Shown: piece by piece, positions 2,534 through 22,460 of the stretch
Layout: every line of letters begins with the position of its first letter
How positions within the stretch are numbered: the first letter of the stretch is position 1
Assembly: GCF_000003605.2 (NCBI RefSeq)
Contig: NW_003124897.1
Span: 317,251-340,919 of the forward strand
Length of the DNA: 23,669 nucleotides
DNA from: Saccoglossus kowalevskii
Lineage: Eukaryota > Hemichordata > Enteropneusta > Harrimaniidae
Direction of reading: 5' to 3'
Notes under the pieces: model-generated
Told to the model about the DNA's origin: nothing
What the model saw: the letters and a program-made list of their open reading frames with translations, nothing else
The model's database searches: none
Position numbers and translations under genes: made by a program

Positions 2534-2606
2534 CTTCAAGTCTCGATGAATGACACAGCTTTTATGGATGTATTCTACTGCCTCAAGTATCTGCTGAATG
2601 CAGTGA
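2534..2606 (-). CDS. CAMK2: CaMKII exon 6b, divergent alternative HRD catalytic-loop exon
   Basis: Second version of exon 6, downstream of 6a. It starts HCIQQILE, continues [11 protein letters not shown] and ends HRDLK. Of 24 complete codons, 17 encode the same residue as 6a. The seven changes are S>A, D>E, H>Y, C>I, N>S, G>C and V>I, all in the C-terminal half of helix alpha-E and the turn before the catalytic loop. The reading frame is intact, HRD and the catalytic Lys are kept, and many codons differ synonymously, which argues for an old copy under selection rather than a pseudoexon. The acceptor is TTCTCTTGCTTGTAGCAG/T, a possible NAGNAG tandem site. The donor AAG/GTAAGG is stronger than that of 6a. 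Length (73 bp) and phase are identical to 6a, so either can join exon 5 and exon 7. Confidence 0.93.
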
Positions 2607-2661
2607 CTGCTACAAGCAAGAGAAAACTGATGCTAAAAAATAACATCTAAAAAACACCCAC
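2607..2661 (-). other. 55-nt spacer intron between the alternative exons 6a and 6b
   Basis: On the minus strand the spacer runs from GTGGGT (donor of 6a) to TAGCAG (acceptor of 6b) and is T-rich, with two internal TTTTTTAG stretches. At 55 nt it is near or below the lower size limit for efficient intron removal in most animals. The donor of 6a and the branch-point region of 6b would be too close for both to be occupied by spliceosome components. This steric arrangement is a recognised mechanism for mutually exclusive exons. The branch point itself was not assigned. Confidence 0.8.
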
Positions 2662-2734
2662 CTTTAAATCACGATGAACAACCCCGTTTTTATGGCAATG
2701 GTCCACGGATTCAAGGATCTGCTGAATACAGTGA
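2662..2734 (-). CDS. CAMK2: CaMKII exon 6a, canonical version of the HRD catalytic-loop exon
   Basis: First of two tandem versions of exon 6. It begins HCIQQILE, continues [11 protein letters not shown] and ends in the catalytic-loop motif HRDLK, whose Asp is the catalytic base in protein kinases. The [11 protein letters not shown] wording matches animal CaMKII as known from vertebrates and flies, so this is probably the ancestral or constitutive form. The acceptor is TTGCTTGTCTTGCAG/T and the donor is AAG/GTGGGT. The length is 73 bp, as in vertebrate exon 6. It follows a 1060-bp intron and lies only 55 nt before the second version. Because 73 is not a multiple of three, skipping or doubling it would shift the frame. 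The plus-strand open frame over this interval is a shadow. Confidence 0.95.
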
Positions 2735-3794: not shown

Positions 3795-3860
3795 CTAGCG
3801 TCTGCTTCACTATAGTACTCCCTGGCTACTATGTCTTCAAATAGCTCACCTCCGGTTACC
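3795..3860 (-). CDS. CAMK2: CaMKII exon 5 (kinase domain, helix alpha-D and start of alpha-E)
   Basis: Second visible exon of the minus-strand CaMKII gene. The translation contains [19 protein letters not shown], one of the most conserved CaMKII signatures: the GGELFEDI glutamates after the hinge, then helix alpha-D. The acceptor is TTTTGCAG after a T-rich tract that is an A17 run on the plus strand. The donor is AG/GTTAGT, slightly off consensus (T rather than A at +3). The exon is 66 bp, as in vertebrates, and ends in phase 2: the closing AG is completed to AGT (Ser) by the first T of either version of the next exon. The downstream choice between two alternative exons therefore leaves the junction codon unchanged. 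Confidence 0.96.
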
Positions 3861-4898: not shown

Positions 4899-4953
4899 AG
4901 ATCAAAGACTAAGTAGTGGAATCCTTCCTCAGCAATACTATCATGTAGTCGAA
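4899..4953 (-). CDS. CAMK2: CaMKII exon 4 (kinase domain, N-lobe beta strands and hinge)
   Basis: Internal coding exon of Ca2+/calmodulin-dependent protein kinase II, a cytosolic and synaptic Ser/Thr kinase that forms dodecamers. Read on the minus strand, it gives [17 protein letters not shown], preceded by a split Val codon and followed by a split Leu codon. The vertebrate equivalent reads VRLHDSISEEGHHYLIFDL, so the match is near-identical (family sequence recalled, not searched). The segment covers N-lobe strands and the hinge that contacts ATP. The 3' splice site is TTTCAACTTCAG and the 5' splice site is CT/GTAAGT. The 55-bp length equals the vertebrate exon as I remember it. The final CT joins the first G of the next exon to make Leu. 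The preceding exon, expected to end in KHPNI, was searched for by eye on this strand and not found. Confidence 0.95.
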
Positions 4954-7576: not shown

Positions 7577-8319
7577 AGACAATAGCCAGGTGGGGGCAGG
7601 CTGCTGCATAGCCAGGTGGGTGGCAGGTGGGGGCAGGCTGCCACATAGCCAGGTGGGCAGCAGGTGGCAGCCCAGCCAGGATAGCTGGGTGGGTAACACT
7701 AGACAGCCGGGTGGGTGGGTTGCACTAGACAACCAGGAAGGTGGCACGAGACAGCCAGGTGGGTGGCACTAGATAGCCAGGTGGGTGGCACTAGACAGCC
7801 AGGTGGGTGGCACGAGACAGCCAGGTGGGTGGCACGAGACAGCCAGGTGGGTGGCACGAGACAGCCAGGTGGGTGGCACTAGACAGCCAGGTGGGTGGCA
7901 CTAGACAGCCAGGTGGGTGGCACGAGATAGCCAGGTGGGTGGCACGAGATAGCCAGGTGGGTGGCACGAGATAGCCAGGTGGGTGGCACGAGACAGCCAG
8001 GTGGGTGGCACGAGATAGCCAGGTGGGTGGCACTAGATAGCCAGGTGGGTGGCACGAGATAGCCAGGTGGGTGGCACTAGATAGCCAGGTGGGTGGCACT
8101 AGATAGCCAGGTGGGTGGCACTAGATAGCCAGGTGGGTAGCACTAGATAGCCAGGTGGGTGGCACTAGATAGTCAGGTGGGTGGCACTAGATAGCCAGGT
8201 GGGTGGCACTAGATAGCCAGGTGGGTGGCACTAGATAGGCAGGTGGGTGGCACTAGATAGCCAGGTGGGTGGCACTAGATAGACAGGTGGGTGGCACTAG
8301 ATAGACAGGTGGGTGGCAC
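7577..8319. repeat. Minisatellite, 22-bp unit, about 30 copies
   Basis: From about 7745 the unit CCAGGTGGGTGGCACTAGATAG repeats in perfect 22-bp register, with two alternating sites (CACTAG or CACGAG; GACAG or GATAG). The left edge (7577-7745) is irregular, with longer units rich in GGGGGCAGGCTGC. Both strands are open for long stretches because 22 bp times three gives a 22-residue period; the resulting frames (7559-7747 and 7791-8099 on minus, 7590-7772 on plus) are not genes. It is strongly G-rich on the plus strand. Confidence 0.97.
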
Positions 8320-21845: not shown

Positions 21846-22135
21846 TAAACAAGCAGCCTGTCGGCTGAGATAGCTCCACTGTTAGCAATGCACATTTCAA
21901 TTAAAGAACAGAAGATATCATTAGAAAATGAACAATTTGTATAGTATCAAAGCAATTGGACTTGCTGTTTTCAACTATTCAAAAATATCACTTTTCACCA
22001 AAAATATTCACTAAAATTAGATAATTGAAGATATTATCATGAAATGAACAAATCTGAGAGAGGTCTACCCAAGTATCAAAATATTCAGGCTTGTAGTTTT
22101 CAAGAAGAAGTCGAAAAACTTAGACGACAGACGCC
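21846..22135 (+). mobile_element. Pearl-like element, copy 3 (short, about two core units)
   Basis: The left end, TAAACAAGCAGCCTGTCGGC followed by TGAGATAGCTCC, matches copy 1 almost base for base, fixing the family's left border. The core is reduced to little more than one unit before the conserved CAGGCTTGTAGTTTTCAAGA flank and a shortened GACGACAGACGCC tail. The terminal hairpin of copy 1 is absent. Comparison with copy 1 shows that core repeat number varies between copies. Confidence 0.85.
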
Positions 22136-22460
22136 AAATAAATTGCAGTGACAATGAACAACACCATGTTCAACTTATCACATAATGTGCCAACATACTA
22201 ATTCCCGATTGTGGCGAAACACATCATGATCTTTCTTTGATTTTTCCATACACAAAATAAACCAGATTACTTATTTGATATTAATTATTTTCATATATTT
22301 AAAAAAAAAAAAAATTGTAATCCAGACATGTAGCCAAAATTATATTATTTTGTCCAAATGAAAAAAACAAACAAACAAAACAGGAAAAACTAGTATTTAA
22401 AGAGTGTAATGATGATTCCCTTGCTGTCAGGATCAATGAAAGCAATAGGATGGACCTATA
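22136..22460. other. AT-rich intronic DNA, nothing recognised
   Basis: Contains an A-run at 22301-22314 and a short (AAAC)n run near 22366. No gene. Confidence 0.4.

Follow-up and report, generated by a model that had tools for sequence, protein, structure and literature searches.

Mutually exclusive alternative cassettes occur in the kinase catalytic domain of the Aplysia PKA catalytic subunit, in an invertebrate neuron; the 7a/7b pair of JNK1/JNK2 sits at subdomains IX-X, and the MAPK14 (p38) pair is a helical region distant from HRD. A literature search returned no paper on the Aplysia cassettes among the matches listed. Work on CaMKII treats it as a Ca2+ memory molecule, and its splice diversity is as a rule attributed to the linker, described as the usual site of CaMKII splicing in the relevant passages of PMC11088445 and PMC9772828, which support the statement of an earlier note on this DNA that CaMKII diversity comes mainly from there. 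Published exon pairs also lie within kinase domains. Exons 7a/7b of JNK1 and JNK2 are mutually exclusive within the Ser/Thr kinase domain and appear to affect kinase activity (PMC8746764), and homologous exons are found in the kinase catalytic domain of FYN (B/T; PMC9741552) and of MAPK14 (PMC4465641). In human CAMK2D, a tandem duplicated exon substitution was recorded in a 2022 paper as one of 236 curated cases, the duplicated region crossing the domain and lying partly beside the ATP site (PMC9741552), and the gene has four clusters of mutually exclusive exons (PMC5740500). The earlier note's impression that a switch in the CaMKII catalytic core had no described case is wrong for the kind, because kinase-domain pairs of CAMK2D, JNK, FYN and p38 have been published. 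No publication on an invertebrate CaMKII kinase-core exon pair was found in the literature search among the matches listed, and a word search of the accessible text of PMC7954323 and PMC7561204 found no mention of CAMK2.

The window, the whole 23,669-nt stretch of DNA that was analysed, lies in a 775-kb contig as a stretch without long N runs, flanked by two such runs. On its minus strand it contains two adjacent CaMKII exons of 73 nt, exon 6a (2662..2734), the canonical form, and exon 6b (2534..2606), the alternative form, separated by an intron of 55 nt (2607..2661, minus strand). Both span the CaMKII stretch HCIQQILE to HRDLK, start with (S) and encode 24 residues, with AG/GT borders (6a, TTGCAG/TCACTG...TTAAAG/GTGGGT; 6b, TAGCAG/TCACTG...TTGAAG/GTAAGG). 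The earlier note had described two such minus-strand exons with good splice sites, 17 common residues and identical phases, and the description holds: the exons were confirmed at 2734-2662 and 2606-2534, 17/24 residues are identical, and both exons continue exon 5 in frame, as EADA-S-HCIQQ. The copies differ at 19/72 nucleotides and 7/24 residues, the changed residues being, as 6a/6b, S/A, D/E, H/Y, C/I, N/S, G/C and V/I. The 6b acceptor, TAGCAG (2607..2612, minus strand), is seen in the sequence to be a tandem acceptor of the NAGNAG type, and its first AG, if used, would insert one in-frame serine before HCIQQ.

The exon pair forms a 79-nt direct repeat with 76% identity, the sole direct-repeat family in the 601 bases analysed. 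When the 572-Mb genome was searched in six frames with the 6a peptide, two matches were obtained at E <= 0.001, 6a and 6b themselves, and a search with the 6b DNA gave one, 6b itself. Among the CaMKII exons located by tblastn, exon 6 is the only one occurring twice, and a 26-base pattern with at most 2 mismatches revealed no retrocopied exon 5-6 junction in the genome. Mutually exclusive tandem-duplicated exons are recognised as adjacent homologous exons of equal length, with the same 5' phase and their own splice sites, and 6a and 6b have these features; their 3' phase into exon 7 we infer from the boundary HRDLK/PENLL, which is conserved in vertebrate CaMKII genes, because no exon 7 turned up in the window or elsewhere in the assembly.

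Exon 4 (4899..4953, 55 nt) and exon 5 (3795..3860, 66 nt) each have a single minus-strand occurrence in the window with AG/GT borders, and exon 4 joins exon 5 in frame. Further exons of the same CaMKII gene are present on either side, N-lobe exons upstream and, past the window in the downstream direction, a regulatory segment, a linker piece and a hub piece. Downstream on the same strand, tblastn pieces correspond to the autoregulatory segment, GAILTTMLATRNFS (E 0.013, 14/14), and to the C-terminal hub, GCPVTTQSEETRVW...HFHRSGAPS (E 3.7e-11). A CaMKII-type N-lobe and alpha-E are present in the 138-aa product of exons 1-6 with 6b, for which the top 22 PDB rows (E 1.1e-71 to 2.4e-65) are named CaMKII or calcium/calmodulin-dependent kinase, save 2bdw (K11E8.1d, hypothetical protein), which we take to be worm CaMKII; the next entry is 5ig1, CAMK/CAMK2, at E 6.6e-34.

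A CaMKII composite compared with the assembly gave no match off this contig above 58% identity among the 71 matches listed, with 90/133 candidates scored. Since off-contig identities stay at or below 58%, the gene is treated as the sole CaMKII gene found, in an assembly that is incomplete. The C-lobe exons, presumably exons 7 to about 11 in the numbering used, were not found in the assembly search, in which a C-lobe query gave 30 genome-wide matches, all on other contigs and with a best identity of 49%. An N run of 7,906 bases starts exactly at the low end of the window, where the C-lobe exons belong, and exon 7 probably sits within it. Elsewhere in the genome, three guanidino-kinase matches fall in one 1149-aa open frame (G000:C170:233117-235981, plus strand), which we take to resemble a three-domain flagellar creatine or arginine kinase. 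Several repeats were also observed in the window. Within 1343-2390, a 157-bp unit is present in five copies (92% match, 1445-2234), next to minus-strand AGCTCCGCTGTCGACTTTGTCGAGCGGAGCT, in a dispersed-looking element, and by eye a second, seemingly related element is present near 21850-22170. Two minisatellites fall in CaMKII introns by position, one at 1-747 (32 bp, 23.6 copies), which abuts an N run, and one at 7680-8319 (22 bp, 28.9 copies).

Our main reading, to which we assign a probability of about 0.8, is that exon 6 of this CaMKII gene was duplicated in tandem long ago and that its two copies would be spliced mutually exclusively. From their sequence, 6a and 6b are very probably used one at a time, and exclusivity probably has two causes, the short intron and a stop codon on joint inclusion. 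The steric limit for the distance from donor to branch point is near 50 nt, and a branch point less than about 50 nt from the upstream donor enforces exclusivity of OGDH exons 4a/4b and other pairs (PMC7969005). For a threshold below 50 bp, PMC5740500 counts 57 cases (9%), its legend giving 629 clusters. In the 6a-6b intron, six adenines in all are no closer than 21 nt to the 3' splice site, at +14, +16, +21, +28, +31 and +34 from the 6a donor, the last plausible branch adenine being at position 2628 (+34). Judged by adenine positions alone, all candidate branch-point adenines are therefore closer than about 50 nt to the 6a donor, and with an intron of 55 nt and every one of them within +34, joining of 6a to 6b is improbable. 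In so short an intron, the donor of 6a and the branch site for 6b would be too close together for simultaneous use.

In myosin-head genes of this genome, the smallest gap among 24 neighbouring exon pairs adjacent in the profile is about 105 nt, as estimated from profile matches with 63/64 rows entered; the omitted row corresponds to one more gap, of about 25 kb, and the estimate would overlook any very short intron that a single match spans. Two myosin-head matches, G000:C1210:1611383-1611583 and 1610819-1611040 (minus strand), are neighbours with overlapping profile positions (436-495 and 457-532) and are a possible further tandem exon pair.

The reading frame would act as a back-up. Inclusion of both exons, which the earlier note had claimed to be out of frame, does produce a stop within 6b, the product ending in ...HRDLKSLHSADT with SLHSADT as the last residues before the stop, and skipping of both shifts the frame owing to the 73-nt length, as computed with a placeholder exon 7. 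Either event would leave no kinase. The proposal that exactly one of the two exons must be used is well supported by the sequence, and the steric argument from the 55-nt intron, absent from the earlier note, adds to it. Each transcript would thus receive either the canonical 6a or a diverged but functional 6b, and a regulated choice would set the form by tissue or stage.

As to what selects between the copies, an ordinary guess would be a trans-acting tissue-specific factor. Docker/selector pairing was evaluated by duplex energy, which was reached by 43/200 shuffles for pairing with intron 5 and by 71/200 for pairing with 301 bases of the downstream intron; this gave no sign of unusual pairing. 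A 15-nt inverted repeat (2623-2637/3203-3217) connects the 6a-6b intron with intron 5, has arms of -16.3 kcal/mol and could loop out 6a. As an exon chooser through RNA pairing it was rejected, because the overall pairing of the two introns stays inside the shuffled range.

Three other readings were weighed against a pair of functional, exclusive exons. In the first of these, which we consider improbable, 6b is a decaying relic of the tandem duplication, seldom or never spliced in. The differences between 6a and 6b fall 5/2/12 by codon position. By NG86, 10.5/13.5 silent sites are changed (pS 0.78, saturated), compared with 8.5/58.5 replacement sites (pN 0.145); the saturated silent sites imply that the duplication is old, and yet 6b has kept its frame and splice sites intact. 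When 19 neutral changes were placed on 6a, a simulation that puts all changes on 6b, the mean was 12.2 amino-acid changes, and 0.085% of 20,000 runs gave at most 7 with no stop. A stricter neutral model restricted 6a to silent changes and left 6b free. In this model P depended on the substitutions per site on the 6b branch, being 0/4,000 at 0.8, 0.00025 at 0.6, 0.003 at 0.41 (half of 0.82, a value calculated by hand on the rough assumption that the silent difference is at least 0.5) and 0.036 at 0.3. The support for a relic comes from the shortest branch, 0.2 per site, at which at most seven amino-acid changes without a stop arise by chance in 24% of simulations (P 0.24); a constraint test for 6b alone has only 24 codons, and its outcome hinges on the neutral distance assumed. 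Against a relic, the protein encoded by 6b fits the Pkinase profile as well as that of 6a, scoring 116.4 bits with the same N-lobe compared with 115.7 for 6a. All 20 proteins made were run (6a, 6b and 18 controls). Putting random one-step residues at these seven positions gave control scores of 98.1-109.0 bits (14/14 below 6a and 6b), and neutrally mutated controls scored 82.4-98.9 bits (4/4 below both), so that the replacements seen in 6b suit the kinase profile better than those of 18/18 random controls. The exons are alike while their introns are not: upstream and downstream introns of 6a and 6b show no likeness beyond the splice sites, 161/300 and 215/300 shuffles, respectively, scoring at least as high as observed. 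With its conserved replacement sites, saturated silent sites and Pkinase fit equal to that of 6a, exon 6b does not have the appearance of a relic. Taken together, the site changes, the Pkinase fit and the unlike introns indicate that the duplication is old and that both copies have retained a protein sequence compatible with a kinase.

The stop created by joint inclusion invites another reading, that 6b is mainly a poison exon whose inclusion after 6a lowers the CaMKII level through nonsense-mediated decay. We regard this as very improbable, since a poison exon would have no need to preserve HCIQQILE...HRDLK or to encode, in frame with exon 5, a protein that resembles a kinase, whereas 6b does both, and joint inclusion is itself unlikely with a 55-nt intron. 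The switch might also yield a CaMKII that lacks kinase activity or is regulated in another way, such as a scaffold form, rather than a tuned active enzyme. The changes adjoin the catalytic loop, and G/C and H/Y are non-conservative, as such a form might require; HRDLK and the entire HCIQQILE are nevertheless kept in both copies, and in the alignment with the 138-aa product PDB 2bdw also carries tyrosine at the H/Y place, which makes this outcome unlikely. A pair of functional exons, used one at a time, remains the preferred reading.

With a query that included an assumed PENLL tail, the best phmmer match of 6a was PDB 5fg8 CaMKII at 54.2 bits, and 5fg8, which we take to be Drosophila CaMKII, reads SVNHCHQNGVV, close to 6a. 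With the same assumed tail, 6b scored 39.1 bits against 5fg8, 38.6 at best against alpha, 38.3 against beta, 37.2 against delta and 36.5 against gamma. Its lowest score with a CaMKII chain was 35.4 bits, compared with 36.2 for CaMK1G, again with the assumed tail, so the 6b peptide by itself is scarcely nearer to CaMKII chains than to CaMK1G. A gamma-type exon was considered as the source of 6b, but this is not supported: gamma chains do not score above alpha or delta chains, and they lie below 5fg8. Exon 6a or 6b would supply the last part of helix alpha-E together with the strand that follows and the catalytic loop with HRDLK, and from kinase structure the changed residues are presumably at the end of alpha-E, in the next turn and in the strand before HRD. 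Both kinase forms are probably active, because the invariant catalytic residues are retained in each. The seven changes are more likely to tune alpha-E packing, autoinhibition or partner contacts than to switch activity on or off.

If true, a second splice axis in the catalytic core would be a natural experiment on the role of alpha-E and the approach to the active site in autoinhibition and autophosphorylation, set in an animal in which one CaMKII gene was found. If the switch is common to human CAMK2D, alpha-E and the catalytic loop would be a control point used repeatedly in CaMKII, hitherto unappreciated and distinct from the linker. The finding also points attention to the human CAMK2D pair, and the remaining interest is in descent versus convergence.

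In comparison with the known systems, the Aplysia PKA cassettes differ from the CaMKII pair by the kinase concerned. JNK1 and JNK2 are MAP kinases, unlike the present case, and the FYN pair differs in covering the SH2-kinase linker plus the start of the kinase domain (PMC9741552). For the OGDH pair branch points were mapped, whereas for 6a/6b the comparison uses adenine positions. Human CAMK2D is alike in belonging to the same gene family and in having a tandem-duplicated exon pair in the kinase domain, and it is unlike in that the present pair occurs in an invertebrate-like genome with one CaMKII gene found. The description of the CAMK2D region fits exon 6 (alpha-E to catalytic loop), a likeness by region description, as the accessible text of PMC9741552 and PMC5740500 names no exon. 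That the same catalytic-core exon is duplicated and exclusively spliced here and in human CAMK2D, through retention from an early bilaterian or convergence on the same 24 residues, is a tentative suggestion that we hold at somewhat less than even odds. With 6a and 6b probably mutually exclusive, the CaMKII pair described here is a good new example of a recorded type of switch, and not the first.
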